Assembly: GCF_000737575.1 (NCBI RefSeq)
Contig: NZ_CP006270.1
Location: forward strand, 1,119,163-1,183,162
Reading direction: 5' to 3'
Length of the DNA stretch: 64,000 nucleotides
Origin: Synechococcus sp. KORDI-49
GTDB lineage: Bacteria; Cyanobacteriota; Cyanobacteriia; PCC-6307; Cyanobiaceae
Shown here: positions 31,715 through 64,000 of the stretch, piece by piece
Numbering within the stretch: position 1 is the stretch's first letter
Layout: every line of letters starts with the position of its first letter
Program-made: the position numbers and the translations under genes
The notes under the pieces: generated by a model
What the model saw: only the letters and a program-made list of their open reading frames with translations
Database searches by the model: none
What the model was told of the DNA's origin: nothing

Positions 31715-31772
31715 GCCGATCAGGGATCGATACCATGATGTTGACCAACGTTGACAACCTTCCGGTCTGATC

Positions 31773-32334: not shown

Positions 32335-32368
32335 TTGACGACTCCAGCCTTTCAGCGGCTTCGGATCC

Positions 32369-32399: not shown

Positions 32400-32465
32400 A
32401 TGTTGCAACGGATACAGAGGCCCACCCTGACCCTGTGATGGGGTTAACGACGCTTCCCTTAGACC

Positions 32466-32954
32466 ATGACCGATAAAGCCGGCTTCTGCACGAGGTTGAT
32501 CGACGTTCTGGCGCACGAGTCATTCGGAGCGGACGCCGCTGTGGAGGAGATCCGAGGCTTTGACGGGAAATCACCGTGGGAAGGCAATCAATACTGCTGC
32601 GTTGATGCCACTGAACAACAGTCTGAATTCCGAGGGCTGGTGACAGTCGATAAACATCTGTATTGCTTCGTGGCTCAGATCAACTCCAATGATCAACATC
32701 GATCTCGTTTCATTCCTGCTGCTGAAGTGCTGGAGGACCCATCCGGCACGCCACGCAAAATGCAACCTCTCATTCAGGAGATGATCCTGGGCCGCAAACG
32801 TGGGGTGATGCTGATCCCTGAAACGGAAACAGACGCCGTTGATGTTGTTGCCGGCCTGGTGGAGCAGGGCTTCAGTGAATTGGCCAGCCAATACCGGGAT
32901 TTCATCATGCGGCAGCTGGAGAAATCCAAGGCTGCTGCAAAGCCAACGGCATGA
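32466..32954 (+). CDS. unknown 162-aa protein
   Basis: Begins MTDKAGFCTRLIDVLAHESF. Soluble alpha/beta with an amphipathic basic C-terminal helix (RQLEKSKAAAKPTA). It starts 67 bp after the terminator, so it has its own promoter. I do not recognise a domain; the length and codon pattern support a real gene. Confidence 0.6.
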   Translation: MTDKAGFCTRLIDVLAHESFGADAAVEEIRGFDGKSPWEGNQYCCVDATEQQSEFRGLVTVDKHLYCFVAQINSNDQHRSRFIPAAEVLEDPSGTPRKMQPLIQEMILGRKRGVMLIPETETDAVDVVAGLVEQGFSELASQYRDFIMRQLEKSKAAAKPTA

Positions 32955-33188
32955 TCGGAACGGACCTCACCCCAAGGTGCGGCCATTCCATCCCCAAGGG
33001 GAATCCCGATCGCGTTCTCATGGGGACGCCTCCTTCAAACAGGGACATCCCATAGGCCTCGGGTTTGCCCGTTGCCTTGGCCAGTGCTGCAGACAGCTGT
33101 TGAAGCCGCGAATGGTGAGGGCTCACAGACATCCGTTGATTTCAGGCCACGAGGTGAGCCACGACAAAGGGGATCACACCAACAACCG

Positions 33189-33320
33189 ATGGCACGCAGA
33201 CTTCAACTCCCGAAGAGCCAGGCCAATTCCTCAGATCTCGCAGCATGGACTGCCGTGGTCTTCGCTTCGATCACTGCACTGGTGCTCTGGGGCGTCGCCA
33301 ACGCCTATCCCTCTCTCTGA
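33189..33320 (+). CDS. 43-aa single-pass membrane protein
   Basis: MARRLQLPKSQANSSDLAAW is followed by a membrane helix (TAVVFASITALVLWGVANAY). It looks like the small single-helix proteins common in picocyanobacteria. Start chosen at ATG 33189. Confidence 0.5.
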   Translation: MARRLQLPKSQANSSDLAAWTAVVFASITALVLWGVANAYPSL

Positions 33321-33396
33321 GCACCAAGAAGAAGACAGCGTCAGCAGACGGCGCTCACGATCTGGCTTCGGAAGGTCACTGTCGAAACTTGAATAC

Positions 33397-33684
33397 TTGC
33401 CGCCGTTGATCCTGCTGGCTTGTGCAGCAGCCTTGTATCTAGGCTCAAGAGAAGGATTCGATGCTGTCATTCCGGAGGTCCCCGAAGAGAGCTTGCCTGC
33501 CATCTTCTTCCATGGACACTGCATGGAACGATCAGACCAGATCTACCAAAACGAAATCGCAATCCATAGAAAAACTGAGAAGATTGTTGGTTACGGGAGA
33601 TTTCGAGACGACATTCATGGAAAGGGGCTGACTCGAATCACGACAGAACGACTTGAGCGCGAAGAACAGTGCAAACAGAGCTGA
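33397..33684 (+). CDS. membrane-anchored unknown protein
   Basis: TTG 33397 gives a hydrophobic start (PPLILLACAAALYLGS) and about 75 soluble residues rich in H, R and E. The frame is open further upstream, so the start could be earlier, near 33343. No family recognised. Confidence 0.4.
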   Translation: MPPLILLACAAALYLGSREGFDAVIPEVPEESLPAIFFHGHCMERSDQIYQNEIAIHRKTEKIVGYGRFRDDIHGKGLTRITTERLEREEQCKQS

Positions 33685-33824
33685 GCAAAACCAGAAAGGC
33701 GAACAAAGACAGACCGCATCAAGTTCGCACTGGAGTGATTAAGAGAATCAGAAAGATCAGGAGCGCAAGGATTGACAACAGGAAAGCATTCGTTATTTTC
33801 GGCGCATCATATTGCTGTTCATCA

Positions 33825-34028
33825 ATGGATTTCCCAAAATGGTTTGCTGAGGTGATCCAGCGGAATGCTCAGCCGCAACCCATGAGCGCAGCGATGGAAG
33901 CGACATCTCCTGCGTTCAAAGCCGACAAATCAACGCCGACAATCGACACGTTAACCGTTTATGTTGGCCCCAAAGGAGGCAAGTATCGGTTCAACGAAAA
34001 GGGTAGAAAGATTTACCTCAGCGCCTGA
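33825..34028 (+). CDS. small protein with GPKGGKY basic adaptor-like motif
   Basis: A 67-aa protein. The C-terminal TVYVGPKGGKYRFNEKGRKI matches the short basic adaptor motif best known from chlorella viruses (PBCV-specific basic adaptor domain), also seen in phage and bacterial small proteins. The N-terminus (MDFPKWFAEVIQRN) is a short amphipathic helix. Start at ATG 33825; upstream sequence in frame is unlike protein. Confidence 0.55.
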   Translation: MDFPKWFAEVIQRNAQPQPMSAAMEATSPAFKADKSTPTIDTLTVYVGPKGGKYRFNEKGRKIYLSA

Positions 34029-34031
34029 AGG

Positions 34032-34193
34032 TCACTCATAGTCTGCCAATTCCACAAACTCACGCTCCAACGCATCTGCATCGCCATATCTCTCTTCGTT
34101 GATGAGATCGATAATTCTCTCCAGAATGATTCCGTGCGTGATCCGGCTTGGCCCTTCAAACGAAAAATGGAAATTGCGGTGAAGGCTTCTCAT
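34032..34193 (-). CDS. small helical protein, paralogue of the 34.3 kb gene
   Basis: A 53-aa protein beginning MRSLHRNFHFSFEGPSR and continuing IIDLINEERYGDADALERE. It has the same plan as the gene immediately upstream (aromatic beta start, then helix-turn-helix ending D-A-x-A-x-E-x-E-F). Tandem duplication with divergence is likely. Function unknown. Confidence 0.5.
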   Translation of the reverse strand: MRSLHRNFHFSFEGPSRITHGIILERIIDLINEERYGDADALEREFVELADYE

Positions 34194-34274
34194 GAACAAG
34201 ACTTCAGACTGACATAGCTTCGCCGAAGAGGCTGTCATTTGTAGTATCACCTGATTCCTTTAGGGAACCAATAA

Positions 34275-34448
34275 TCATTTGGAGAAATACCTGGTCTCTA
34301 CATGGTCCTCAAACTCACTTTCGAATGCCCTGGCATCATCAAGCCTGCCCTCATCCAGCAGTCGATTGAGGTGTTGATAGACATAATCAAGATTTCCCTT
34401 GTTCAGATAGTCAAACGAAAATCGAAGCGAATTACTTGAAGAAGGCAC
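34275..34448 (-). CDS. small helical protein with homologue in the integrated element
   Basis: GTG start (AGAGGT upstream), 57 aa. It contains FDYLNKGNLDYVYQHLNRLL followed by DEGRLDDARAFESEF. The gene at 58253-58432 in the AT-rich element encodes the same blocks (FDFLNKGDIDYVFQHLNHLL, EEGRYDDARAFEEEY). The two are clear homologues despite very different GC content, so the family moves between host and element. Function unknown. Confidence 0.65.
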   Translation of the reverse strand: MPSSSNSLRFSFDYLNKGNLDYVYQHLNRLLDEGRLDDARAFESEFEDHVETRYFSK

Positions 34449-34632
34449 AGGAATTACCTCTTTACAATTTCATGGTAGTCATCCTGCTTTCGATGCTGAT
34501 GTGTTCGCCGCATCGCTTTCGCACCTTTAAGGTATTAAGCGGCACACTTTCACACGAACAAAAGCATTGATCATTCGATCGGTTGCCTTCAGCTCACACG
34601 ACAACGCGCTGATGCTTCGCGGACCCTTAACT

Positions 34633-35025
34633 GTGAAACGATGGCTTGCGCTACTGCTGCTGCTTCCACTGGGATTAACAAGCCCTGTGAAAGCCTTTGA
34701 CGGAGGGGGTCTCGACAACGAGAAGGCCATTGAAATCTCTGACGACAAGTCAGAGATCATCCTGCCTGAATACTCGGTTTATCATGCTTCTTGCATGGAC
34801 ATTCAGTTAAGAATGTGGGGTGAAGTTGCAGAGTTGATGGAGGATCTGGCGACTGCTCACTGTTACTGCGAATATTCCAAACTGGAACAACTCGATGAAT
34901 TGACATTCGCACAACAGCAAGACGTGGAGGCCAGTTGCGCACGGGAAGGAACCATCAACAAAAAAGAAGCCTTCATCTGGTGGGCGCTTCCACTTCATTG
35001 GCAGCGCTTGAAAGGCGAGAACTAA
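34633..35025 (+). CDS. secreted protein of unknown function
   Basis: About 130 aa from GTG 34633 (ATG 34612 is an alternative). A clear signal peptide (MKRWLALLLLLPLGLTSPVKA) is followed by an acidic mature part with four cysteines (HASCMDIQ, AHCYCEY, ASCAREG). Probably periplasmic. A hairpin follows at 35070-35099. No family recognised. Confidence 0.6.
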   Translation: MKRWLALLLLLPLGLTSPVKAFDGGGLDNEKAIEISDDKSEIILPEYSVYHASCMDIQLRMWGEVAELMEDLATAHCYCEYSKLEQLDELTFAQQQDVEASCAREGTINKKEAFIWWALPLHWQRLKGEN

Positions 35026-35623
35026 GCATTGCCATCGTTCACGGGATGACGCCGGTCCAAGAAAGAGGAAGGCCGCCCCTCCCGCTGGAGAGACGGCCTA
35101 GCTCGCTCGTTTGTGCATTGCTCAACCCGTGAATGGATCAGGGGTTGAGAGGCCAGCCCACCTACGACAGGAATGGGGTGACCTCTCTTATTGCTCGCTT
35201 CCGACACCCCTGTGATGACGGGAACAGGGGCCATGCCGCATGCCATTGCTGGCGCAGGGCGAAGTGTCGGGCTTTCAGGTGCCTGGGGCCTTGACGTCCA
35301 GGTGTGGGGCTGGTCTCCCGCGGGGCACCTGTGAACGGTGCTGAGGAGAGTCGTCAAAGACGAGCAGCCCACGGTTGGGTGGAAACTGTTGGAGCAGGGA
35401 CCTAAAAGTCAGGCGACTTCTAAGACCTGCTCGGTTGGACCGTCGTCTCGCATGGACGCCTCCGATCTCGATGGACACACTCTCGTCAGCGGACACGCAC
35501 CCCGGCAATCAGCCTTAACGCTCATTGCCTTCTGAGCCCGACCCGTCTGATGTTGGATCTGTTGTGCCTGATCACAGACGGGGGGAACGACAGCCAGATT
35601 CAGCCGACATGCAGAGTGCTGGC
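35026..35623. other. 598-bp region without convincing gene, two hairpins
   Basis: It contains a hairpin at 35070-35099 (AGGCCG/CGGCCT outer stem, CTCC/GGAG inner stem) that may end transcription of the upstream gene. An 8-bp perfect inverted repeat (CAGGTGCC at 35276, GGCACCTG at 35324) encloses GC-rich sequence and could be part of a structured RNA. Small frames here have no support. Confidence 0.35.
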
Positions 35624-35851
35624 ATGAAACAGATCAACGTCCAGCAACTCCGATCGCTTCGTCTCCTTGCACTTGCCCGCGATGACAGGGCTGTCGCTGA
35701 ACTGAATTCACGAATCTCCAACTCACCCGACTACCTCGTGGAGGAGCTGATGAACCGCCACGGGTGGGCCGCTCACGAAGCGCTCTGCGCCGTTCAGCAG
35801 TTGCAGGAGGAAGCCCTTCGCAGCACCAGTGATCAGCAGACTGCTGCCTGA
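35624..35851 (+). CDS. unknown 75-aa helical protein
   Basis: MKQINVQQLRSLRLLALARD followed by two more helices (DYLVEELMNRHGWAAHEALC). Host-like codon use. Possibly a small regulator, but no motif is recognised. ATG 35609 is an alternative start. Confidence 0.5.
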   Translation: MKQINVQQLRSLRLLALARDDRAVAELNSRISNSPDYLVEELMNRHGWAAHEALCAVQQLQEEALRSTSDQQTAA

Positions 35852-35932
35852 CACAACTCTTGCTCCAGTGAGTCATCGAAGGGTTGCCAAGCCTCGTTGA
35901 GACGCTGCAATCAATCCAATCGGAGCCTTGAG

Positions 35933-36097
35933 ATGACGACCCAGTTGACCAACCTTCCCTGCGGCACTGTTGAGGTCAGAGTCTGTGCCGATCAGATCTG
36001 CGCCACCGGTTGGGTCAGCTCCCACCACCTGGTCCCGACAAAGGAGGCTCAACTCAGGGAATGCGTCACTCGAGACATGCAATCAACAGCCGAGTGA
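35933..36097 (+). CDS. unknown 54-aa protein
   Basis: MTTQLTNLPCGTVEVRVCAD begins a short beta-rich protein with three cysteines. It converges with the DUF1651-type gene three bases away. Confidence 0.4.
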   Translation: MTTQLTNLPCGTVEVRVCADQICATGWVSSHHLVPTKEAQLRECVTRDMQSTAE

Positions 36098-36373: not shown

Positions 36374-36434
36374 GCGGTTGAGTCTGGCCGCCTCTGTTCA
36401 CAAACGGTGGCGCTGCCATCGGTTCCAAGGTTGA

Positions 36435-36720
36435 AGGGGCCTTCCAGCCCCCATGAGTCAGTTGGGTGATAAGGCTGACTTCACCCCATCTCCCCTAAGG
36501 GTCAGGCAGCAACAGGGGCTGCTTGACGGGAGAAACGAACGATGTTGTTCGCAGTTACGGGTTTGCTCTCACCGAGCAGGCTTCAGTCACCCTCCTCATG
36601 CCCCGTCGAAACCATTGCAGCCCCGGGATGGGGGAATGGAGCTGAGCGGAATCGAACCGCTGTCCGAAACACTGGTGTGGATCACCTAGTCCGGAGAACC
36701 GGACGCTGCCATTCTGTCAG
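36435..36720 (-). ncRNA. ssrA: two-piece (permuted) tmRNA
   Basis: Rescues stalled ribosomes. The gene is circularly permuted. The acceptor piece comes first (about 36720-36637) and ends in the T arm AGCGGTTCGATTCCGCT and acceptor CAGCTCC plus discriminator A; CCA is not encoded. A 12-base spacer follows. The coding piece starts at 36624 with GGGGCTGCAATGGTTTCGAC. The acceptor stem has the G3-U70 pair that specifies alanine. The tag frame 36552-36505 encodes ANNIVRFSRQAAPVAA, followed by TGA. This form and tag are typical of marine picocyanobacteria. Outer ends are approximate; a GGGGC/GCCCC hairpin lies near 36437-36452. Confidence 0.93.
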
Positions 36721-36765
36721 CAGTGGTGACCTGGAGCACAACCACCTTTGGGTCGTGAGAACCGG

Positions 36766-53604: not shown

Positions 53605-54561
53605 ATGCTGGCACGTTGCCTCAGCGCCTCCCTGCAGGGCCTTGACGCCCGGCCGGTCACCGTCGAGGTGGACATGGCACCGGGGCTGCCGGGCATTCAG
53701 CTGGTGGGGCTGCCGGACAAGGCGATCCAGGAATCCCGCGAGCGGGTGCGCTCAGCCCTGCGCAACAGCGGCTTCCGGGGACCGCTGGTGCGGGTCGTGA
53801 TCAATCTGGCGCCGGCCGACCTGCGCAAGGAGGGCCCCGCCTTCGATCTGCCGATCGCCCTGGCACTGCTGGCCGCCAGCGGCCAGCTGGATCAGCCACG
53901 GCTGAGAAACATCTGGTGCGCCGGAGAACTGGGACTGGACGGCAGCCTGCGGCCCTGCCGCGGCGTGATCGCCTTGGCGGAACTGGCATCGGATCAGGGG
54001 GCCCGGGCCCTGATCGTGCCGCCGGCCAATGCCGAGGAAGCGGCCCTGATCCCGGAACTGACTGTCCTCAGCGCTCCTGACCTGCGCCAGGTGGTCGAGC
54101 AGCTGCAGCAGCGAGGCCCGCTGCTGCGCACGATGCCCCGCAGCACGGCCTTTGAGGCTCCCGAGCCGGAACCGCCTGCGCAACCCGGCGTGGAACAGAG
54201 CCTGGCCGCACGGGCTCTGGCTCTGGCAGCGGCGGGCGGCCATCACCTGCTGCTGGTGGGCCCCCCGGGCTGCGGCAAAACCCACCTGGCGCATCAGCTG
54301 CCCAGGCTGCTGCCGCCCCTCAGCCGGAGCGAAGCCCTCACCATCACGCGGATCCAATCGGTGGCCGGCCTGCTGCGCAATCCCGGCACCCTTCCCAGAA
54401 CACGGCCGTTCCGGGCGCCCCATCACAGCTGTACCGCCGCTGCACTGCTCGGCGGCGGCATCAGTCCGCAGCCGGGGGAGCTCAGCCTCGCCCACGGCGG
54501 CGTGCTGTTTCTCGACGAGGTATCTGATTCCAGTTTTTACCTACCACATCCCTTGCTATGA
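53605..54561 (+). pseudogene. comM: comM (yifB) truncated at Walker B by the inserted element
   Basis: ComM is the MCM-like helicase that promotes branch migration during natural transformation. The first 305 residues are intact: the LonC-like domain (MLARCLSASLQGLDARP, KEGPAFDLPIALALLAASG), Walker A LLVGPPGCGKTHLA and the run up to GGVLFLDE of Walker B. Homology stops at about 54519; the frame then runs 13 meaningless codons into AT-rich DNA and stops at 54561. The remaining roughly 200 residues of a normal ComM are missing from the window, so the gene should be inactive while the element is in place. Confidence 0.9.
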
Positions 54562-55736
54562 CTGGTCTTTACATCTCGTTATAGAGGTTGGTATTTGGTT
54601 GGTATTGGACGAAACCCTGATTTTGTCTCCCATTCAAACTCCGGTTCGCTCTGTCGCGAACTGATGTGTGTGAAAAATGGATGGACACTAGATATGGTGT
54701 GTTCTCATTCTTACCACCATATGTGGTGTTAGTTGGAGAAGAATACTAATCATTCATATCCAACTACTCAATCATCCACTACAAATCAGTCCTTTCATCA
54801 AAAGAAGAGAACCAATAACCTCTCAACTAATCATTCTTTCTCAACTCAACATCCAACATTTCCACAACCTTCTCCACATCCTCTGCGTCTGTAAGTAAAT
54901 CTACTCACTAACAACAGGCGCAAAGTCAGTATGAGCGGAGTATTGATTACACCAGAACTAACACCACTCAATCACGGCAGGACTTTTCCAGCGTGGTTGG
55001 TATGGATAAATGGATAAGTTGGTATCAACCTCTCTACTCTCACCAGATAACGCTGTAAGGGACGGAAGAACTATCAACCATCCAATCTATCTAACACATC
55101 CTATCGTTCAATACAGACGATTACAGACGCATCTGACGGACACACCAGTAAGTTCGACTAGATTGGTAATCTAACTCACCTTGCGTCAGCGTCCTTGGTG
55201 CGAAAAACGCGGAGGTGGGTAGAAATAATAAATAACACAAACTCACAAAGAGATATTGTTATCGACTCGCATACAAAGGAACACGCGTGCGGAAAAGCGC
55301 ACCCGGGTATAGGGAGGATTTTCGTCCTTGAGGCATCGATAATAGGGTTCACAAATTTTTATCATTTTTTATCGGGTTTACTGGGTTCTGACTACATAAA
55401 ACAAGGTAGATGAACAAACCCATACCAATAGTCCTAACAATAAAAACAGGCGCAAAGAGGATAAAAAACAGGTTCAAATCCCAGTAGATTGACCTCTATT
55501 CCTCGCCGCAGACAAACACTTGTAATGGTTGAGGTGAGATGGTTTCACGGGTTCTGATTGGGACTGAATATAGTCCTCAACAATATGTGTCTCCTTTTCA
55601 TTTAGAGTGATACCACTATAAAGGAGTTCGTGAAGGTATAAAGAGTATTTCATAGGTGGTTAGTAATGAGGTATTTATGACGAACAGGTAAGACAACACA
55701 GACGCACGGAAGGTGTGGATGTGTTGTCTATCCCTA
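54562..55736. other. left end of element, ~1.2 kb without convincing gene
   Basis: Five copies of the ACAG(A/G)CGCA word (54884, 54914, 55123, 55446, 55698). A hairpin GTGCG-GAAAAG-CGCAC lies near 55287-55302, followed by TATAGGGAGG at 55308-55317, which looks like the start of a T7-type promoter but lacks its upstream part. The 72-codon frame at 55195-55413 has no good start or composition. This may hold the element end, control signals or an RNA. Confidence 0.4.
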
Positions 55737-56276
55737 CTACTTGTTCTTACTGCGAAGACGATTACGGACATACTCCAAAGCGTCTCGTCGTGTCTTCTCC
55801 ATCTGTTCCCGCGCTTTCTTCACTTTGTTGCCGTAGTCCGTGCCGGAGTTAGAAATGAAGTGTTCGGCAACGGCAAGAGCGGTAGTAGCGAGTTGTCCCT
55901 TACCAACACCTTTCGCACTACCTTTGATTTTCTTACCTTTGTTGAACTTGGCGAGGTCTTTAGAAGAGTGAGCGGGACCACCCTTCTTCGCTCGCAACTT
56001 TGTGTCGTTGAACTCATCAACACCAGCGGAAGTAGTTCTGGCGATGTAGGTGCGTCTATTGCGAGTAGCGGTTTTATTCCTTGCCTTTGCGAGGTCTCGT
56101 TTCAGGTTCTTCAAACCATCCTTTATCCGTTTAGTTTCAAGGACAGGACTATTGGGTTTATTACCCTGCGCTTTGCGGATGTTGTTCTTTGGTTTAGTCA
56201 GGTTTGACTTACGGACATTATTGGAAGGTTTTGGTTTGCGTCCTGTTGGTTTGCGTTTGTTATATGGTTTAGACAT
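55737..56276 (-). CDS. very basic 179-aa protein
   Basis: Begins MSKPYNKRKPTGRKPKPSNN and is lysine/arginine-rich throughout, ending in a basic helix (EQMEKTRRDALEYVRNRLRSK). The first 50 residues look disordered. Probably binds nucleic acid; in a phage it could be an internal virion or DNA-condensing protein. It is the last gene of the minus-strand series, five bases after the next gene's stop. Confidence 0.7.
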   Translation of the reverse strand: MSKPYNKRKPTGRKPKPSNNVRKSNLTKPKNNIRKAQGNKPNSPVLETKRIKDGLKNLKRDLAKARNKTATRNRRTYIARTTSAGVDEFNDTKLRAKKGGPAHSSKDLAKFNKGKKIKGSAKGVGKGQLATTALAVAEHFISNSGTDYGNKVKKAREQMEKTRRDALEYVRNRLRSKNK

Positions 56277-56281
56277 AACTA

Positions 56282-56431
56282 TTAGAAGGTAAGGCGAGCG
56301 GAACCACCAGAGACAACAGGTTTAGGAGTAAAGGGTTGTCTTACTACTGGCGTGTTCTTTGGAATAACAGGCGCAGAGGTGGTTGCGTTTGTTTGAGTAG
56401 TTGTAGGGATACGGAGATTAGTTCGATTCAT
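56282..56431 (-). CDS. unknown 49-aa proline/threonine-rich protein
   Basis: MNRTNLRIPTTTQTNATTSA followed by PVIPKNTPVVRQPF. Low complexity and basic. Its start lies inside the 3' end of the upstream gene (14-bp overlap). It contains one copy of the repeated word, read as TSAPV. Confidence 0.5.
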   Translation of the reverse strand: MNRTNLRIPTTTQTNATTSAPVIPKNTPVVRQPFTPKPVVSGGSARLTF

Positions 56432-56570
56432 TATCAGTAGGTTGTTTGAGTTCTTTGGTTAGTTGGTTATGGAGTTGTTGTGAGAACTGAAAGAGTTCAT
56501 CTGCCTTTGAAGAAGGAAGATGTGATAGTTCCCTTATGAGTTCGTCATATCTGTCCTTATCAGTCATCAT
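56418..56570 (-). CDS. unknown 50-aa helical protein
   Basis: MMTDKDRYDELIRELSHLPS continues as an amphipathic helix (ADELFQFSQQLHNQLTKELK). A good ribosome site (CAGGAG) precedes the ATG, and the start overlaps the upstream stop, so it is part of the same operon. Confidence 0.6.
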   Translation of the reverse strand: MMTDKDRYDELIRELSHLPSSKADELFQFSQQLHNQLTKELKQPTDNESN

Positions 56571-56890
56571 TCACTCCTGCGTGTAACAGGATGTTCATCC
56601 CTATCAATAGGTAGATAGTCCAGCGAACCAATCCTGAACTTCATCGTTTGAAGAGTTGGAAAAGTATTGACTTCTATTGGTGGTTCACCTTCCAATCTCA
56701 TCGAAGGTGTCTCTTCGTAGATATTGATTACCTGACCTTTTTTTAGGTTCGTCAGTTGAACGACATTATCGGTAATGGTGTAGTCAGTAGTTTTTACACC
56801 ATCGACTTTGAGAACCAGTAAATCAGGGTTGAAAGGAATGGTGATTTCTAACTGAATAACTTCGGCGTCATAGGGTATCGTCGCTTTCAT
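56567..56890 (-). CDS. small protein with phage-fibre-N-terminus-like beta domain
   Basis: About 107 aa. Residues 10-60 (IPFNPDLLVLKVDGVKTTDY, TITDNVVQLTNLKKGQVINI) show the beta pattern 'x-V-x-V-D/N-G-V-x-x-x-D-Y ... V-x-L... G-x-x-I-x-I' found in N-terminal domains of T7-type tail fibres. Start at ATG 56890 (TTG 56896 possible), overlapping the upstream gene by 23 bp. A structural or adhesin role is inference. Confidence 0.55.
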   Translation of the reverse strand: MKATIPYDAEVIQLEITIPFNPDLLVLKVDGVKTTDYTITDNVVQLTNLKKGQVINIYEETPSMRLEGEPPIEVNTFPTLQTMKFRIGSLDYLPIDRDEHPVTRRSE

Positions 56891-57131
56891 CTTCAATAGT
56901 AGTAATGGTTATTTTGTGTCCATCCTCTAAAGGTTTATCCAGGACAACAACAGACGCAGAGAATAAAAAGTCAGTTGTTTCTGTATCGTTGATTAGAACC
57001 TTTACCTTGTGTCCTGATGGAATGGAGAATGGAACAATCCAGTTGCGGTAACGAAGGTTGTAACGCTGGTTAGGACTCGGATAAGGGAAGACAGGTTTAT
57101 TGATATATGAGATGGATGGATTATCAGTCAT
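56868..57131 (-). CDS. second small beta protein of the same style
   Basis: About 87 aa from ATG 57131. NWIVPFSIPSGHKVKVLIND, TETTDFLF and KPLEDGHKITITTIE repeat the fibre-like beta pattern of the following gene. The two neighbours may have arisen by duplication and could form one structure. No strong ribosome site. The 280 bp upstream hold two facing copies of the repeated word. Confidence 0.5.
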   Translation of the reverse strand: MTDNPSISYINKPVFPYPSPNQRYNLRYRNWIVPFSIPSGHKVKVLINDTETTDFLFSASVVVLDKPLEDGHKITITTIEDESDDTL

Positions 57132-57314
57132 ACAGGAAATCGAGTAGATGTTCGTAGTCGTCCAGTAGTGGGAAATAAACAACACCCAAAAGAGATGAGA
57201 GTCGATAGTAATACAACATTTGATTGATTAGATAAAAGGAAGTAAGAGGAGTTCAACCTCAATACATTTGAGTTCCACCCTTACTCAAAAATAGTCAGCG
57301 GACACTTCCGAAGG

Positions 57315-57348
57315 ACAGACGCAGAGGATGTAAAAGAACTGCGCCTGT
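57315..57348 (-). repeat. hairpin made of two facing repeated words
   Basis: ACAGACGCAG (57315) faces CTGCGCCTGT (57339-57348) across 14 bases, in the gap between the genes at 57131 and 57411. In minus-strand RNA the stem pairs fully with one G-U. It may act as a terminator or processing site; no T run follows. Confidence 0.5.
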
Positions 57349-57410
57349 GTTGTCGAACTTTCCAGTGGGAAATCTATACTTGTTTAGTGTCGCAATAGAA
57401 CGACAATCAA

Positions 57411-57722
57411 TCAAAAACAATCCAGCGCGTCTTCATTACCACTCGCCAACATTTGAGCGGCGTGAGATTCCCAACCAGTCAAAGGACTATCTTCACCAAC
57501 AGACGCAAGGTAATCTTTGACTTCACCAGATGAACCTTCTTCAATACCTTGTGATTTACCAGATGTCCTAACTGGTTTCATATAGTTAGGTGGTGGTTCC
57601 GGTTTATTCATCGGTTTCTTTCTCGTCACATTCGTTGGTTGATTTAGAGGTTGTTCAACACGAAGACGAGAGGAGAGTGGTTTGTATTGTTTGTAGTTGG
57701 ATGAGTAAGGATGGTTCGTCAT
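57411..57722 (-). CDS. unknown 103-aa protein
   Basis: ATG 57722 (MTNHPYSSNYKQYKPLSSR) lies one base after the upstream stop. The N-terminal half is basic and proline-rich (KKPMNKPEPPPNYMKPVR), the C-terminal half acidic (GEVKDYLASVGEDSPLTGWE). Probably a flexible adaptor. Not recognised. Confidence 0.55.
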   Translation of the reverse strand: MTNHPYSSNYKQYKPLSSRLRVEQPLNQPTNVTRKKPMNKPEPPPNYMKPVRTSGKSQGIEEGSSGEVKDYLASVGEDSPLTGWESHAAQMLASGNEDALDCF

Positions 57723-57723
57723 C

Positions 57724-58107
57724 TCACTTACAATCCTCTTCCGACTTACTCCACGAATAATCGCAGTAATGGGAACACGCCTCAATAATCTCCTCTTTGG
57801 TAATCAGTTCTACTCCTAATACATTTTGGAGTTTGAGAGCGATATTGAGATTCATACTATCGCGAGAGTTGATGATGTCGCTGAACACAAGGTTGGAGAA
57901 ACCAAGTTTCACATCCAGTTCATTCATCCCACCATATGAAGTAGAGACGGCGAGTCCTCCTCTACCGACACTCTCTGCGGGTTGTAGGGAGTTCTTCCGA
58001 GCGTAATAAGAATCCTTTACCGCTTTTCGTTGTTCGTTAGTGAGTCGGATGCGAGCGGAGAGAAGGATAGGCAAAGGGTTATCAACCCATTTATTTGAAT
58101 AAGTCAT
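57724..58107 (-). CDS. unknown 127-aa protein, possible HTH
   Basis: The C-terminal half (FSDIINSRDSMNLNIALKLQ, NVLGVELITKEEIIEACSHY) has the helix pattern of XRE-type DNA-binding domains, with a usual 'LGV' turn. The N-terminal half is basic (RIRLTNEQRKAVKDSYYARK). It could regulate the element, but the match is by eye. Start ATG 58107; TTG 58116 is possible. Confidence 0.5.
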   Translation of the reverse strand: MTYSNKWVDNPLPILLSARIRLTNEQRKAVKDSYYARKNSLQPAESVGRGGLAVSTSYGGMNELDVKLGFSNLVFSDIINSRDSMNLNIALKLQNVLGVELITKEEIIEACSHYCDYSWSKSEEDCK

Positions 58108-58155
58108 ATCAGTCAAAAAGGTAATAATAATGAATACTTTGTATATTATAAATAT

Positions 58156-58172
58156 GGAGTTGTTGATACTCC
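58156..58172 (+). promoter_or_regulatory. AT-rich promoter-like region and hairpin for plus-strand gene
   Basis: TTTGTATATTATAAATATGG (58138 onward) is the kind of AT-rich -10 region used by host sigma-70 polymerase. Immediately after it GGAGT-TGTTGAT-ACTCC forms a small hairpin. Downstream are AAAGGAGG (58204) and the two plus-strand frames. Confidence 0.4.
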
Positions 58173-58212
58173 AAAGACAAGAATAGGATGCGATAACTAC
58201 ATCAAAGGAGGA

Positions 58213-58290
58213 ATGTGTCTGATTACCTTGAAAGAGTCAATCGGTAATCTCTATGAATCCTCCACCTCAAAATCTGCGCTACACATTTGA
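58213..58290 (+). CDS. possible 25-aa leader peptide
   Basis: Strong ribosome site AAAGGAGG five bases before the ATG. MCLITLKESIGNLYESSTSK and five more residues, then stop. It overlaps the start of the conserved 59-aa frame in another reading frame. That frame lacks its own ribosome site, so translation may be coupled to this leader. Confidence 0.35.
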   Translation: MCLITLKESIGNLYESSTSKSALHI

Positions 58291-58432
58291 TTTCCTAAAC
58301 AAGGGAGATATCGACTATGTGTTTCAACATCTCAATCACCTGTTAGAGGAAGGTAGATATGATGACGCAAGAGCGTTTGAGGAGGAATACACAGAAGACA
58401 TAGATACAGAGACATTCTCTAAAATGTTATAA
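58253..58432 (+). CDS. 59-aa homologue of a host island gene
   Basis: MNPPPQNLRYTFDFLNKGDI, then DYVFQHLNHLLEEGRYDDAR and AFEEEY. Aligned with the host gene at 34275-34448, most of about 48 residues are identical or similar without gaps. It is on the plus strand, against the main gene direction, so it is probably transcribed separately. Homology across the GC divide proves shared ancestry; the role is unknown. It overlaps the neighbouring minus-strand gene by six bases. Confidence 0.7.
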   Translation: MNPPPQNLRYTFDFLNKGDIDYVFQHLNHLLEEGRYDDARAFEEEYTEDIDTETFSKML

Positions 58433-58753
58433 GTTCTGTGATTTCAAAGATTTCGGTTTAGGGATTTTGATGTTGGAAGGTCTGTTAGATACACCGCGCT
58501 TACGCAAGTCCTCTTTGATTACCTTCTCCATCTCATCAGTCATTTCCACAGGCGCGGAGTCAGGTTCCGTAGATTCCTCTGCGTCTGTGTTTGGAAGTGG
58601 TTCCAATACATACTTACGGCGTGGTTCTGTCTGTTGGTTACGCTGATACTCTCGCTTACGAAAGTCCGTATCCTCCATATTTACCCACTCACCGCCTACG
58701 TTAGTTTCAACCTTGAGAAATGATTTCTCATCAATCGGATGTATCGGCATCAT
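58427..58753 (-). CDS. unknown 108-aa protein
   Basis: MMPIHPIDEKSFLKVETNVG begins a charged, largely disordered protein with an acidic centre (NTDAEESTEPDSAPVEM, where TDAE and SAPVE come from two facing repeated words) and a basic tail (KIPKPKSLKSQNL). Start overlaps the upstream stop. Confidence 0.55.
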   Translation of the reverse strand: MMPIHPIDEKSFLKVETNVGGEWVNMEDTDFRKREYQRNQQTEPRRKYVLEPLPNTDAEESTEPDSAPVEMTDEMEKVIKEDLRKRGVSNRPSNIKIPKPKSLKSQNL

Positions 58754-59127
58754 CCTCTCCTCGCCATTCCAGTAGGTGCGTTAATCTTCTTTCCTGCGAC
58801 TTTGACGCCAGACAAGTTAGAAGGTGCGGAGATGAGAGGTTGTCCTACATTCGACTCTAGGAACATCTCTTGGATTTTAGACAACAGAAACTCTTTTACA
58901 CTTTGGTTTTTTACAGACGCCATTCTCGTAAGTTGTGCGTTTTCACTACCGGACAAGGTAAGAGTAATCTTCGCTGGTTTGAGTTCCTTGATTGCCGTCT
59001 CTGTTGCCTCTTTCTCCACATCCGTAGATGGTTTTAGAACATCAGAGTTTAGAAGTTGAGTGAGAGTTTCTTCATCACTCAAATCAAGTTCGGGTGTATT
59101 TTCATTATTGTTGTGATTTAGTTTCAT
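58750..59127 (-). CDS. possible ribbon-helix-helix DNA-binding protein
   Basis: 125 aa. Residues 52-90 (KITLTLSGSENAQLTRMASV, KNQSVKEFLLSKIQEMF) have the strand-helix-helix pattern of CopG/Arc-type domains. The N-terminal 50 residues are acidic and the C-terminus is basic (GVKVAGKKINAPTGMARRG). It may bind operator or word sites in the element. Tentative. Confidence 0.5.
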   Translation of the reverse strand: MKLNHNNNENTPELDLSDEETLTQLLNSDVLKPSTDVEKEATETAIKELKPAKITLTLSGSENAQLTRMASVKNQSVKEFLLSKIQEMFLESNVGQPLISAPSNLSGVKVAGKKINAPTGMARRG

Positions 59128-59220
59128 TATTCAGTCGTGTAAAGATTAGATAAGTTGAGTAGTTTCGGGACACAGGTAATGTTTTGCCTCACTACATTAC
59201 AAACAACTAATAATAAGAAG

Positions 59221-59367
59221 ATGGTTGTAAATCCATCAACCGAATATCAGATAAACATTATTAAGGCAAAATCTGCGGATACGGAAGAGGAGTATCAGAA
59301 ATACCTGTCCATCGCTATCCACTTTTTAGAAAAGATAGAAGAACATAAACTAAAAGAAGTTTCCTAA
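59221..59367 (+). CDS. unknown 48-aa helical protein on the plus strand
   Basis: MVVNPSTEYQINIIKAKSAD then a lysine/glutamate helix (EEYQKYLSIAIHFLEKIEEH). A purine-rich ATAATAAGAAG precedes the ATG. It converges with the next gene, overlapping its stop by four bases. Like the 58.3 kb gene it opposes the main operon. Confidence 0.5.
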   Translation: MVVNPSTEYQINIIKAKSADTEEEYQKYLSIAIHFLEKIEEHKLKEVS

Positions 59368-60041
59368 TCTCTGATTAGTTGTTCATAATAAGGTTTGAGT
59401 TGCGCTGGTGAATAGCGTTCCAATAGTTCTCCTATCGCTTGAGATTGGTCTATTTCGCCTCTATGAAATCGAGCGGTTTGGTGAGCGATAGCGGAAAAGA
59501 TAGGATTAGATTCCTTGTATTCAACCGCCTGTTCCATCCAAGAGAGAGCGACTTCATCACCGCCTGATTCCTGTGAGTTCAGGTAATCAACGGCAGAATC
59601 AATCTCATCTTGTGAAACATTCTCTGCGTCTGTTAGTTCTTCTTCAACAGGCGCAACTGAAGATTGGGAACGATACTCTTCAACAAGTTCCTCAATCAAA
59701 GGGACATAGTTCCCGTAATCACCACTATCTATTTTATTGTTGAAATCAAGGATATATTCAGGTGATTTGTTATCCCTTGCGTAGGCGAGAGCGTCCATCA
59801 AATCAGGGTATGCCTGCGTCAAGGCGATAACATACTCTGCGTCATTATCAGGTTGATAATCTTCATCCTGTTGTAGGTCTCGCTCTTCAATCAAATACTG
59901 GCGCTGTCCTGTTGCCTCATCCTCTTGATAAGGACTTTCATAACTTCCACCAGAGCGTCCTACAGAGACACTCCCATTATTCACATCATAAGTTCCATCA
60001 TCATTGATTGATGGACTAAAAGTCATCGGTCTGTTCGGCAT
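59364..60041 (-). CDS. acidic 225-aa protein, possibly scaffold-like
   Basis: Strongly acidic, with a G/S-rich N-terminus and helical blocks. The block YPDLMDALAYARDNKSPEYI plus LDFNNKIDSGDYGNYVPLIE resembles the helical repeat of phage capsid scaffolding proteins ('...A-x-x-N-x-x-x-x-x-I-x-x-F-N-x-x-x-D-S-G-D...'). A second helical block ends in LLERYSPAQLKPYYEQLIRD. Two facing repeated words are read as APVEEE and LTDAEN. Identification is tentative. Confidence 0.5.
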   Translation of the reverse strand: MPNRPMTFSPSINDDGTYDVNNGSVSVGRSGGSYESPYQEDEATGQRQYLIEERDLQQDEDYQPDNDAEYVIALTQAYPDLMDALAYARDNKSPEYILDFNNKIDSGDYGNYVPLIEELVEEYRSQSSVAPVEEELTDAENVSQDEIDSAVDYLNSQESGGDEVALSWMEQAVEYKESNPIFSAIAHQTARFHRGEIDQSQAIGELLERYSPAQLKPYYEQLIRD

Positions 60042-60106
60042 AGTAAATCTCAGTTCAAATCAATCACATCAGTATTATTCCTAATATGAAAGGTATAGTT
60101 TTTAGA

Positions 60107-60148
60107 AGGTAGATAGGCAAACCCACAAGCGAATGGAAACCTATCTAC
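60107..60148. repeat. perfect 10-bp inverted repeat
   Basis: GGTAGATAGG (60107-60116) and CCTATCTACC (60139-60148) with a 22-base loop. A second stem, GTTAGG / CCTAAC, follows near 60162-60186. Both lie between the genes at 60041 and 60354 and could end transcripts, be processed, or bind a protein. Confidence 0.6.
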
Positions 60149-60210
60149 CACCGGAAAGAAGTTAGGCACAACATATAAAACCTAACCACAAAAGTAGAGA
60201 ACTAATAACA

Positions 60211-60333
60211 TCAGGCAAAAAGAACTAAATACCTACTGACGGCGTTATTAGTAAGAAGTGTTGAGTTGAGTTTATCGACTTCCTCAAATGGTCGTCCATC
60301 TTCACTACTAGAAGAACTATCTTTTAGAGACAT
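60211..60333 (-). CDS. possible 40-aa protein
   Basis: MSLKDSSSSSEDGRPFEEVD then KLNSTLLTNNAVSRYLVLFA. It lies in the direction of the operon, 20 bases after the upstream stop, but has no clear ribosome site. Confidence 0.35.
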   Translation of the reverse strand: MSLKDSSSSSEDGRPFEEVDKLNSTLLTNNAVSRYLVLFA

Positions 60334-60353
60334 AAGGTTCTTTGGTCTGTTAG

Positions 60354-60854
60354 TCAGAAGTCAATATCAAACGGACTATCTGGATTCTCCTCTTCCTCTA
60401 TCTGAAACTGCGTGCGTCTGTCTTCTTCGTAGAAATCAAGATAATCAATATTGAAGAGAACACTTCCATTATCAAGGTCTCGAAAATGTCCAGATACACT
60501 TACCTTCCGATTTGGTAGATAGTCAGGATATTCAACATCAATATTTAGTTTCGGTGGAAAGAGTTGAGAGGCGACAATCAGACCTTTTCGTGTCTCATAT
60601 TGTTTAGTCGCCACCTTGCGAGAATAAGAGGACTTCAACATATCCACTAACATCAGCGACTTCTCACCAACCTCCATAAATAGTTGATGGTCATTCATAG
60701 TAAGTGGAATATAGGTAGAGACGAACTCGTTATTACTATTAGGTTTCAGAAGGTAATCCGCATCCTGTAATATCGCCTCGAACCTTATTTGTGTTTCGCT
60801 CGGTTCTAGAAGTGTTTCCTCCTGATAAAGAGGTTCATTTTGATAAGTCATCAT
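60354..60854 (-). CDS. possible single-stranded DNA-binding protein
   Basis: 166 aa. A beta-rich centre (LNIDVEYPDYLPNRKVSVSG, HFRDLDNGSVLFNIDYLDFY) could form an OB fold. The end is an acidic tail finishing in phenylalanine (EEEENPDSPFDIDF), the signature of SSB-type proteins including T7 gp2.5. In many T7-like phages the ssb gene lies soon after the RNA polymerase gene, as here. The fold is not proven by eye. Confidence 0.5.
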   Translation of the reverse strand: MMTYQNEPLYQEETLLEPSETQIRFEAILQDADYLLKPNSNNEFVSTYIPLTMNDHQLFMEVGEKSLMLVDMLKSSYSRKVATKQYETRKGLIVASQLFPPKLNIDVEYPDYLPNRKVSVSGHFRDLDNGSVLFNIDYLDFYEEDRRTQFQIEEEENPDSPFDIDF

Positions 60855-60888
60855 AAGTCAGTATCATTCAGTTTATTCACTCAAATCA

Positions 60889-61191
60889 TCAGACACACAA
60901 TACGGCGTCATCACCATAGGTTTCAGCGAACCTTTTCACAACACTAATAAGGTTGCGTTCTTCATTCTGTTCTTTGATTCCTACTACTCGATTCACTTGA
61001 AGTGATTGAGGAATCGCAGAGTTATAACCAGAGTTGATAGAGGCAATCCGTTTCGCTGGATTGTTCGCTTGTCCTATACAGAATCGTCCGTCGTGGAGTT
61101 GAACCACGAAGACATAATCTGCGGTGTATTTCTTTTCTTGTCGCTGATGGGTGGTTGATGATGTAGCGGAAACAAAAGAAGTATTCATCAA
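60889..61191 (-). CDS. GIY-YIG-like protein
   Basis: 100 aa. ADYVFVVQLHDGRFCIGQAN followed by NPAKRIASINSGYNS matches the first half of a GIY-YIG domain (Y-V-x-x-L, then x-C-I-G-x-x-x-x-P-x-x-R-I). Later parts (RVVGIKEQNEERNLISVVKR) fit the domain's helix with the catalytic glutamate. Might be a small homing or phage nuclease, or an inactive relative. Confidence 0.6.
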   Translation of the reverse strand: MMNTSFVSATSSTTHQRQEKKYTADYVFVVQLHDGRFCIGQANNPAKRIASINSGYNSAIPQSLQVNRVVGIKEQNEERNLISVVKRFAETYGDDAVLCV

Positions 61192-61619
61192 AGTAATGAT
61201 AATAAAGTGATTAGTTGTGTTCCTAAACCATTATGTTTAGATAAAATAAAGTGGTTTAGAAACGGGTTTAGTAAGAACTGAATACAGACGCAAAGGAAGT
61301 GGTATAGATACAATAGGTAGAAACCTGTGTTATCAGTAGAAACACCAACAACGCCACACCTTCGGTGCGCCTGTTGTTTTAGTTTCACCTAATCTTCGTT
61401 TCCAGGATTGTAAGGATTCAGTTCCTGTCTAACCAGTAGGGATACAGAACATTCGCTGCCGCGAATAACCTGTATATCCTGACTGGATTTTTGTTGTCTT
61501 TAGAGAGATTGTTGTCTCCCTTACCCTATATATGGACTTTTATTTTCTATTCCTTCTCCCTTTAGATAGATTTTTATTTTCTATACGGGAGAAGTCAGTC
61601 AGGGTAAGGGTTTTCATAA
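61192..61619. other. 428-bp non-coding region behind the polymerase gene
   Basis: It holds an 8-bp inverted repeat (CTAAACCA / TGGTTTAG, about 61222-61259), two facing repeated words (61284, 61366), a perfect hairpin ATTCGC-TGCC-GCGAAT (61451-61466) and two 34-bp tandem repeats. No gene is visible; probably the control region for the downstream operon. Confidence 0.6.
61516..61583 (-). promoter_or_regulatory. two 34-bp tandem repeats, candidate phage-polymerase promoters
   Basis: 61516-61549 and 61550-61583 are exactly adjacent and agree at 26 of 34 bases. On the minus strand each reads TAGAAAATAAAA, then a variable spacer, then TA(A/T)AGGG and purines. The AT-rich block plus TATAGGG-like core has the size and shape of a T7-type promoter, and transcription would run into the operon starting at 61191. 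No cognate promoter is known for this polymerase. Confidence 0.45.
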
Positions 61620-64000
61620 TCAGGCAAAGATGTATTGACTATCTCTAACAACCTCTAAATCAAGTGTATTGGACTTTGGAAAATCTGTTGCCGGTTCAAT
61701 AGGTAATCCATTCAGTTCTCTGAACCTATCCCAGATGTCCATACCTACCGCTTGGATATAACCTTCCTTCAACCTGTCCAACATCGTGTTCATCGCTCCT
61801 GTCGCGTAAGTATGAGCGGCGTCGTGGATGGTGGAGAAGGAATATTCAAAGTCGTGAAGAGCGATAACCATAATCGCGCTATCAGTCATATGTGTCGCAT
61901 TCGCTGTAATCGCTCTCTTCCACGCTTTCAAGTCGGGTTTTCCCGTTGGTTGTCTCTCGGTAAATCTTCCGTTGTGGAATGAGACAACCCGCTTCGGTGT
62001 TTCATATTCAGGATATTTCATAACCTGAACCGCTCCGGCAGCGTTAGGGATAAGAACCTCTTTCTTACCCATATCATAGATTTCCTTTACTCTATCCTGG
62101 AACCAACCAATAACACTATCAACAGACATAGATGATTGAGTTGTTTGTTCCCAGAGTTTCCAGAGTGATTTGATTTCATCCCGATTCATTTGAAGTGATT
62201 CATCTATCTCATCGTGGATTTTGTAGAACTCACTCATTTGTTTTCGAAGTCCTGCCGAGTATTGAAAAACCATAATCATCTTCTTCGCGACATTCCGTCC
62301 ATAACCAAGTGTCGTCCATTCGTCCAACAGGGTGGTTCTAATCGGTGGAACAGGGTAAGACCTATTCACCTCTAACAATCGGTTCCAGACGCGAAGGTAG
62401 AGGTCTTGTGGCGTGTTTGACGGAGTGATATTCACCGCCTCTGCGTCAGCGGCGTCTAACTTCCAACCAGCGTGAATACCGGCAGCGGAACAGGACATAT
62501 CGACACCACATCGAATGGTGGTAGTGGTTCGTTCTCTCGTGATAAAGATTCGATAGAACTCTTCGCAGGCGGCAGCGAACTGGAAAGGTTTATCAATACC
62601 TTCCAAATAGGACAGCGCCTGTTGTTCATTATCTTTCTCAAACATAGTCGCAATCATTTTGATGTCTTCTATGTTCTGAATAACCCACTCAACTCTCTCA
62701 CCAAACGAAACCTTATCCTTACCGGCATTATTCGCAATCTCTACACATAACCAGAACTTTGTATGTTCATCTATTGGTTGTGGTTCAGCGAACATAATCG
62801 CCGCCTTTTGATAATCGGTTCCCTGTGGTTCTGGTGATGTTTTACAAAGACAATACGCTCTGCCTCTGAAATCCCACATATGAGGATAGTAAAACCTATC
62901 AAGTTTTTGTAAGTCGTTGAGAATGTTATAAACCTGACGAGACCTCCTTCCTTTCTCAACCTTCATCAGTTGTCGAGCGTGTTCATTAGACCAGTTCTTT
63001 TTCGCTTGTCTAAACTCCTCTTCTTTCGCTCGCAGTTCCTTTCCTTCCTGTTCGTAATCACCTCTTCTAACCACACCTATCGCTTGCGCTAAATCGATTG
63101 GTTTCTGATAGATGTGAGGAACGAACTTACCTAACTTGAGGTTGCGGTTGTAAAGGTAAGAAAGGAGTTGAGTAATAAAGGGATTGACTTTGTAAGGAAC
63201 ACTCTGTAATCGGTTGATGTATTCCAGATACAAGGGACTTGTTCTCAACTCACCTTTATGTTCCTGTGGTTTAAGAAGGTCTGCGGAAAGTATCCAACTA
63301 CCAAAGTGTTCGTTTGTTGCCTCAACCGGAACACACAACATAGGTAAATCATCGAAACACCATTTCTTTTGTTGTGCGATGTAATGGTCTTTCCATCTCT
63401 CTGCGGCGTCTGTAAGAACTACATAAACCGCTTTTTGATTACCTTCGATTTGTTTCGTATGTTCCTCAAACAAATCACTTCCATACTTTAGACAACCAGA
63501 CAACAACCACGAACCTATGTGTTTTCTATCAGCGCCAAATGGTTTCCATTCCATCGCTTCCGCTTCTGTAATCCTTCCTTCTTTCCGTAGTTCTTCTCCC
63601 TTCCTTTTCAACGCTCTCATCATATTGTATCGCCAATAGAAAGAAGAACTGCGAGGTCTATCATCACCACCAGAACAGAACTTATCGATGTCTGCGAAGT
63701 ATTCAGGAAAACACTTTTCTACATACTTGAAATAGATTTGTTGTTCTACTCTCTTCGCAATCTTATCTATAAGGTTTGACCTATCCACCGCAGGATAGAC
63801 AACCTTCTCTTGTCCTGTTTTCTTATCCACCATCTTTTCTTTCATAGGTGGAGACATAGCGTTATCCAAAATGATTTGAAGTGCGACGAAGACAGCGAGG
63901 TCTAAATCAAAATAGTTTGACCTCTCATCACTTGGTTGGATTTCCTTTTCGCCTGTGTATTTATTTTTCTTGTAGGTTAGGTTTAGTCCTAAACATCTTT
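61620..64000 (-). CDS. T7-type single-subunit RNA polymerase, 5' end outside window
   Basis: The frame is open to the right edge. From the internal TTG at 63869, 749 residues are seen, and 43 more codons extend upstream (T7 enzyme: 883). Numbering from that TTG: D-x-R-G-R at 333-337 (MWDFRGRAYC); motif A Asp457 in GVDMSCSAAGIHAG; motif B Arg525, Lys529, Tyr537 in RNVAKKMIMVFQYSAG, with the same spacing as T7 R627/K631/Y639; motif C His682-Asp683 in STIHDAAHTY; and a C-terminus YIFA like the T7 FAFA. All catalytic residues are present, so it should be active. It is very diverged from T7 and would transcribe the element from its own promoters. Confidence 0.95.
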   Translation of the reverse strand, partial: RCLGLNLTYKKNKYTGEKEIQPSDERSNYFDLDLAVFVALQIILDNAMSPPMKEKMVDKKTGQEKVVYPAVDRSNLIDKIAKRVEQQIYFKYVEKCFPEYFADIDKFCSGGDDRPRSSSFYWRYNMMRALKRKGEELRKEGRITEAEAMEWKPFGADRKHIGSWLLSGCLKYGSDLFEEHTKQIEGNQKAVYVVLTDAAERWKDHYIAQQKKWCFDDLPMLCVPVEATNEHFGSWILSADLLKPQEHKGELRTSPLYLEYINRLQSVPYKVNPFITQLLSYLYNRNLKLGKFVPHIYQKPIDLAQAIGVVRRGDYEQEGKELRAKEEEFRQAKKNWSNEHARQLMKVEKGRRSRQVYNILNDLQKLDRFYYPHMWDFRGRAYCLCKTSPEPQGTDYQKAAIMFAEPQPIDEHTKFWLCVEIANNAGKDKVSFGERVEWVIQNIEDIKMIATMFEKDNEQQALSYLEGIDKPFQFAAACEEFYRIFITRERTTTTIRCGVDMSCSAAGIHAGWKLDAADAEAVNITPSNTPQDLYLRVWNRLLEVNRSYPVPPIRTTLLDEWTTLGYGRNVAKKMIMVFQYSAGLRKQMSEFYKIHDEIDESLQMNRDEIKSLWKLWEQTTQSSMSVDSVIGWFQDRVKEIYDMGKKEVLIPNAAGAVQVMKYPEYETPKRVVSFHNGRFTERQPTGKPDLKAWKRAITANATHMTDSAIMVIALHDFEYSFSTIHDAAHTYATGAMNTMLDRLKEGYIQAVGMDIWDRFRELNGLPIEPATDFPKSNTLDLEVVRDSQYIFA

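Follow-up and report, generated by a model that had tools for sequence, protein, structure and literature searches.

The stretch analysed here, referred to as the window, is a 64,000-nucleotide portion of the Synechococcus sp. KORDI-49 genome (G000:C1:1119163-1183162), whose right part holds the 5' portion of the competence gene comM and, directly after it, the left portion of a mobile element that carries its own single-subunit RNA polymerase. The window sits within a single contig of 2,585,813 bp (99.98% completeness), and the element was followed past the right edge of the window, where extended coordinates represent the position in the adjoining DNA (L005) plus 64000. Genome numbers (G) denote the genomes compared, KORDI-49 being G000, and the family sample comprised 300 genomes. 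The features of the left boundary are listed first.

53605..54519, + strand: 5' part of comM, residues 1-305 up to FLDE of the Walker B motif, by homology; joins in frame with the 3' part, which resumes at extended 71335 (L005:7335)
54509..54519, + strand: core of the left attachment site (attL), TTCTCGACGAG, 11 bp, with an exact copy marking the right end (extended 71335-71345)
54520..64000, no strand: left 9.5 kb of the 16.8-kb element, the remainder running to extended 71334 (L005:1-7334)
54587..54604, + strand: arm-type repeat GTTGGTATTTGGTTGGTA, presumed integrase arm site, at the equivalent place in the two other comM insertions (G174, G242)

A mobile element is integrated in comM

The original prediction held that ComM homology ends at the Walker B motif near 54519 with low-GC DNA directly after it, and both homology and base composition confirm this, with guanine-plus-cytosine (GC) content falling from ~65% to ~41% at 54519, immediately after the FLDE end of the homology. 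The 3' half of the gene (Mg_chelatase_C), which was to be sought to the right of the window, was found at 1190847-1191101, ~16.8 kb rightward, on the same contig and in frame with the 5' half, and is thus not attached to other host DNA as a faulty assembly would have it. An attachment core and an integrase, likewise expected there, are present as the 11-bp TTCTCGACGAG at both ends and a tyrosine recombinase at extended 68834-70249, while the single-subunit RNA polymerase reported in the low-GC DNA proved to be a full 885-amino-acid open reading frame (ORF) at 61620-64277. The search for an uninterrupted comM in sister strains was also borne out, as the gene is an intact single gene in at least 11 other genomes of the genus.

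The repeat TTCTCGACGAG is a direct repeat that encodes the Walker B FLDE motif, and joining the flanks at this repeat yields an in-frame ComM of 514 amino acids with zero stops. The insert measures 16,826 bp with a GC content of 40.7%, compared to ~65% for the host. With a recombinase near one end, core repeats at both ends and a target that is intact once the ends are joined, this is a clean site-specific integration of a mobile element into comM. No tRNA gene was found at either end of the element by tRNA search, Rfam and tRNA searches of the element returned zero matches, and no defence-system family matched within it.

comM is a recurrent attachment site

Two further genomes of the genus (G174 and G242) have comM split at the identical residue, with an insert of 8,384 bp in G174 and a ~0.5-kb scar in G242. 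The integrase of G174 is 64% identical to that of KORDI-49 and likewise lies at the right end, and the G174 element (G174:C1:2472500-2484500) is without an RNA polymerase and has a different cargo. This cargo includes four tandem paralogous small secreted-type proteins. In all three insertions GTTGGTATTTGGTTGGTA is located 69-70 bp inside the left end, and a scan of 400 genomes allowing at most one mismatch found this repeat in only nine. Because it is so rare and is common to the three comM insertions, GTTGGTATTTGGTTGGTA is very likely to be the arm site for the integrases of this subfamily. That G174 and G242 share with KORDI-49 both the position in comM and the arm repeat therefore indicates that comM is a recurrent attachment site in the genus and not an assembly artefact. 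A chimeric assembly, to which the sharp GC break within a gene might point, has a negligible probability given the single contig of full genome size, the in-frame rejoining and two other genomes with independent insertions at this point.

The comM gene is frameshifted, truncated or lost in several family members (G089, G207, G225, G071, G075, G162, G112 and G261), mostly without an insertion. Several members of the genus have such a damaged or missing comM without carrying the element, so ComM function is often dispensable there. Insertion into comM may shield the element from loss through transformation, which fits work on Acinetobacter comM (PMC11472951). Set beside this protection, a reversible switch of ComM through excision is equally open because both comM halves in KORDI-49 are undecayed. 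As an account of the whole locus, a host-level switch would have excision restore ComM when competence is needed, with relations to phages being secondary. The prophage in Listeria comK is a precedent for excision that restores a competence gene, the undecayed halves rejoin to a full ORF, comEC and dprA are both present in the KORDI-49 genome, and several element-free members of the genus have a frameshifted or partly lost comM. However, no evidence of excision was found and undecayed halves are equally expected from a recent insertion, and we consider this account very unlikely.

A second GC-poor stretch of the window, 27001-36000 (GC 0.47-0.59), ends close to a transfer-messenger RNA (tmRNA) gene at 36411-36726. 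The tmRNA gene is a classic integration site, and this stretch is a possible further island.

The element carries a T7-type RNA polymerase and a tail-less gp2.5

The genes that bear most directly on the nature of the element are the polymerase, with the repeats that follow it, and a homologue of the phage single-stranded DNA (ssDNA)-binding protein gp2.5.

61620..64000 in the window, full gene to extended 64277, - strand: single-subunit T7-like RNA polymerase, intact 885-amino-acid ORF
61517..61584, - strand: pair of tandem 34-bp repeats with the ends TCTAAAGGGAGA / TATAGGGTAAGGGAGA; candidate cognate promoters, directly downstream of the polymerase gene
Extended 66936-67424, - strand: gp2.5 ssDNA-binding protein (PHROG_112, 3.4e-16)

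The polymerase has a PHROG_414 match of 1.7e-99 and can be aligned with T7 RNA polymerase across the catalytic motifs and the C-terminal FA, with GVDMSCS, VAKKMIMVFQYS and IHDAAHT being the equivalents of T7 D537, K631/Y639 and D812. Its identity to the polymerases of T7-like cyanophages is ~26%. Downstream of the polymerase gene in KORDI-49 and in the elements of G156 and G215, a purine-rich stretch is followed by AGACAACAA, and in KORDI-49 this region includes the tandem 34-bp repeats, which resemble T7-type promoters. The promoter-like repeat was not seen in the G123 element, and the repeats at 61517-61584 are no more than candidate cognate promoters of the polymerase.

The gp2.5 of the element shares 62% identity with its counterpart in Synechococcus phage S-RIP1. 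It terminates at ELFGKIDGYKIG, while the phage proteins extend into an acidic tail ending DDF, and each of 80 gp2.5 homologues from viral contigs (80/80) has an acidic tail followed by a terminal aromatic residue. No tail is encoded in the other reading frames past the stop of the element gp2.5, and the gene that follows overlaps this stop. Removal of the tail from T7 gp2.5 raises its affinity for ssDNA and abolishes its interactions with the replication machinery (PMC2965674, PMC5686142). The element thus encodes a natural tail-less gp2.5 resembling a laboratory deletion that loses replisome contacts, and by this analogy we infer that it might act as an inhibitor of a helper phage.

A block of small genes includes a putative scaffold protein

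On the minus strand the polymerase gene is followed by a block of small genes that runs down to 55737.

60889..61191, - strand: 100-amino-acid protein, 56% identical to its G156 homologue, perhaps weakly GIY-YIG nuclease-like
60354..60854, - strand: 166-amino-acid protein, acidic C-terminus with a terminal aromatic residue, conserved in the G156 and G215 elements
59364..60041, - strand: 225-amino-acid acidic protein with a putative T7-like (gp9) scaffold domain at residues 76-126
58750..59127, - strand: conserved small protein, homologues in the G156 and G123 elements
58427..58753, - strand: 108-amino-acid protein, no function assigned
57724..58116, - strand: conserved small protein, homologues in the G156, G123 and G215 elements
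57411..57785, - strand: conserved small protein, homologue in the G156 element
56868..57185, - strand: 105-amino-acid protein, no function assigned
56567..56896, - strand: 109-amino-acid beta-rich protein with a weak resemblance to T7-type tail-fibre N-terminal domains (phrog_6953, E 0.021)
55737..56276, - strand: 179-amino-acid very basic protein, no family match

In a search with a profile built from phage gp9 core domains together with the G156 and G089 sequences, the protein at 59364-60041 ranked first of 562 (E 1.3e-4), and the best of the 561 control ORFs reached E 3.1. Its syntenic counterpart in G156 belongs to the T7-type head assembly/scaffold genes (PHROG_1052, 1e-15; PHROG_1018, 1.7e-12) and has the domain in two copies. 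G089 and G123 also have the domain, as do G225 and G249 with weaker matches. On this moderate evidence we assign a gp9-like scaffold domain to 59364-60041. The fold model of 56567-56896 is beta-rich, with a predicted local distance difference test score (pLDDT) of 65, and its weak fold matches are mostly to tail fibre proteins of T7 type, those of Synechococcus podoviruses among them; a tail-fibre-like domain is a weak assignment from this model. The G156 homologue of 60889-61191 matches a homing endonuclease family, phrog_18411, at E 0.076. The protein at 60354-60854 was considered as a second gp2.5 on account of its acidic tail and terminal aromatic residue; profile comparison gave no support, and its single-sequence fold was unusable (pLDDT 43). 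Two of the small conserved proteins, one queried as its G156 homologue, had no match in the phage records.

The remaining features lie at the right end, with the recombinase.

Extended 64687-64929, - strand: NikA-like small protein, by family match
L145:11214-11545 (extended 65222-65553): tandem array of four 83-bp units, core TTCCAGCGCAGTYGATTTCAAGGAA
Extended 67501-68157, - strand: protein with homologues near the integrases of other elements, by homology
Extended 68834-70249, - strand: tyrosine recombinase (Pfam Phage_integrase, 6.6e-7)
Extended 70250-70957, - strand: 235-amino-acid protein, ORF with no function assigned

The motifs of the recombinase are intact (R282; YSLR 400-403, with R403; AGH 424-426, with H426; and Y435). 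It is 37-38% identical to the integrases of small-genome family members. Scans of genome contigs and viral contigs for the polymerase and the integrase yielded as sole close relative one integrase, that of Synechococcus sp. AG-683-C23. The 83-bp array lies inside a 1.7-kb non-coding stretch between the gp2.5 gene and the NikA-like gene and is possibly an origin or a structured RNA.

A nine-base motif is dispersed across the element

54885..63413, both strands: those copies of the dispersed motif ACAGRCGC(A) that lie in the window, 20 of the 33 in the element

Of the 71 genome-wide copies of the motif ACAGRCGCA, 26 lie in the element, 13 on each strand, and the other 45 are spread over 2.57 Mb. 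The motif is therefore ~88-fold denser in the element than in the remainder of the genome, and the span that bears it (G000:C1:1174046-1190417) runs from window 54885 to extended 71248. The shorter form ACAGRCGC has 33 copies at a mean spacing of 511 bp, with few one-mismatch variants. ORFs cover 66% of the element but contain 15 of the 33 copies. That the copies are exact, lie in both orientations and are depleted within ORFs suggests that a recognition site is being maintained. It may serve uptake, packaging, replication, self-marking or DNA organisation, and the density is a clear statistical fact without an explanation.

The motif is not comparably enriched in the other loci of at least 8 kb that were compared, nor in P-SSP7, and total counts gave no comparable excess in other family genomes. 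A strand switch along the element was not significant (permutation p 0.06, 0.13), and when viral contigs were scanned for pairs of the motif, the hits were chance matches and repetitive Gly-rich coding repeats. The motif was also tried as a pointer to a helper phage and set aside, having only six copies in 683 kb from 80 T7-like phage contigs.

Related loci and the nature of the element

A single-subunit polymerase was found in 26 of the 300 family genomes, and in 19 of the 196 good ones. The loci of G025 and G273 (contig 12) have clear T7-like phage genes, while most of the other polymerase loci read have no further T7 gene within ~10 kb and usually have an integrase nearby. Parts of the small-gene block of the KORDI-49 element recur in syntenic order in the elements of G156, G215 and G123, and these syntenic relatives sit outside comM in other picocyanobacteria. 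Across the 66 ORFs of five related loci, head assembly/scaffold families were the only virion PHROGs among the 25 families listed of 46. The polymerase elements of G267 (L097) and G156 (L108) both adjoin purK, which suggests that the neighbourhood of this gene is another shared attachment site. The polymerase loci of G173 (L102), G282 (L110) and G056 (L103) lie close to long genes of short coding repeats.

When the T7-type replication and virion genes of P-SSP7 were compared to the element at E 1e-3, only the RNA polymerase and gp2.5 matched. The element has no match to a T7-type DNA polymerase, primase-helicase, portal, capsid or terminase, the genes that mark an Autographiviridae prophage, nor to a tail tube. 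The original prediction that a phage-like element with its own polymerase interrupts comM stands as to a mobile and site-specific insertion, but “phage-like” proves too broad for an element with no T7 replication-core or virion genes. Because these genes are missing and relatives of the same architecture occupy other sites, the element is probably a capsid-hijacking satellite of T7-like cyanophages, rather than a prophage, with comM as its chromosomal attachment site. The scaffold domain and the tail-less gp2.5 are suggestive, but no more than that, of genes that redirect the morphogenesis or replication of a helper.

A decayed T7-like prophage, in which the RNA polymerase and gp2.5 were kept and the rest was lost, would account for the two T7-type genes, and T7-like cyanophages such as P-SSP7 have an integrase just before the polymerase. 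However, the polymerase and integrase ORFs are intact, other genomes keep the small-gene order while having, apart from the scaffold, no virion genes, and the tail of gp2.5 was lost with an overlapping downstream gene and no visible frameshift. The integrase, in addition, resembles no phage integrase in the collection searched, and because the polymerase is only ~26% and gp2.5 ~60% identical to the proteins of T7-like cyanophages, the gene set appears assembled and not the remnant of one phage. Such a relic is improbable.

An autonomous, plasmid-like integrative element that transcribes itself and spreads by vesicles, transformation or transduction, with no capsid hijacking, is less improbable than a relic but still unlikely. 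No virion gene is certain in the KORDI-49 element, GC skew shifts inside it despite the main genes all lying on one strand, as in a separate replicon, and the 1.7-kb non-coding stretch with its 83-bp array could be an origin. Yet no replication initiator was recognised, and in the absence of a T7-like helper there would be little use for either the scaffold-like protein or a gp2.5 that lacks its tail.

Several points weigh against a capsid-hijacking satellite. A helper phage, induction, excision and packaging are all without observation, the integrase has no match among 50,697 phage records, and roughly half of the genes in the element have no known function. The scaffold assignment in KORDI-49 depends on a match of ~50 residues (E 1.3e-4), the assignment as a tail fibre is weak with no fold match below E 0.001, and the nine-base motif gives no link to a helper because it is not enriched in T7-like phage contigs.

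If the element is such a satellite, the recombinase would insert it and excise it as a circle at the TTCTCGACGAG core, and ComM would be inactive while the element is integrated, until excision. Infection by a T7-like phage would lead to expression of the element, partly through its own T7-type polymerase acting from the promoters downstream of the polymerase gene. The tail-less gp2.5 would compete with the helper gp2.5 on ssDNA without contacting the helper polymerase or helicase, biasing replication, and the gp9-like scaffold, possibly with the tail-fibre-like protein, would redirect the helper capsid and tail such that the element is packaged. More tentatively, and on balance doubtful as a combined proposal, there may be a class of picocyanobacterial, RNA-polymerase-bearing satellites that deploy a tail-less gp2.5 and a hijacking scaffold against T7-like helpers, with one branch residing in comM and with the nine-base motif of the KORDI-49 member marking the whole element for self-recognition, uptake, packaging or replication, a role for which satellites offer no known precedent.

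Comparison with known systems

P4 (Sid), SaPI (CpmB) and PLE (TcaP) are satellite systems that redirect capsids. Like the KORDI-49 element they are small, carry a site-specific integrase and have a scaffold-like gene without a capsid gene, but their gene sets and hosts are unrelated. To our knowledge none of them has a T7-type RNA polymerase or a tail-less version of a helper single-stranded DNA-binding protein. T7-like cyanophages are important killers of marine picocyanobacteria, and we know of no satellite of these phages with a defined mechanism. The T7-like cyanophages (Autographiviridae: P-SSP7, S-RIP1, S-CBP4) share with the element a single-subunit RNA polymerase, gp2.5 and scaffold homologues; unlike them, the element is without the replication core and virion set, and its polymerase shares only ~26% identity with theirs. 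The element offers concrete, testable parts: an RNA polymerase of its own along with candidate promoters, a gp2.5 that lacks the tail, and a scaffold-like protein in the absence of any capsid gene.

VEIMEs and tycheposons are described as marine integrative elements, some of them proposed phage satellites (PMC11389934, PMC10803314), and tycheposons as located at tRNA genes (PMC10872708). They resemble the KORDI-49 element in being picocyanobacterial, in having a tyrosine recombinase at one end and a cargo that varies, and in their presumed spread by phages. Tycheposons sit at tRNA genes, whereas the KORDI-49 element sits in the protein-coding comM and is not classed as a tycheposon. No mention of an RNA polymerase was found in these three texts. 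A search of literature other than the primary tycheposon and VEIME papers found no RNA-polymerase-bearing satellite in cyanobacteria, so novelty is provisional. An element of Prochlorococcus and Synechococcus that is likewise defined by a tyrosine recombinase is described at tRNA-Phe or tRNA-Cys (PMC10187409), unlike the KORDI-49 element.

Finally, comM of Acinetobacter is interrupted by Tn7-like AbaR islands and other elements (PMC11472951), and the KORDI-49 locus is alike in that a mobile element interrupts comM. No Pfam family of the Tn7-like tni transposition genes was found in the element ORFs scanned. In contrast to the Tn7-like AbaR islands, the KORDI-49 element has a tyrosine recombinase, an 11-bp core in the Walker B codons and a phage-derived gene content. 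Cyanobacterial comM thus serves as an attachment site by a mechanism unrelated to that of AbaR, which bears on the frequent presence of mobile elements in competence genes.

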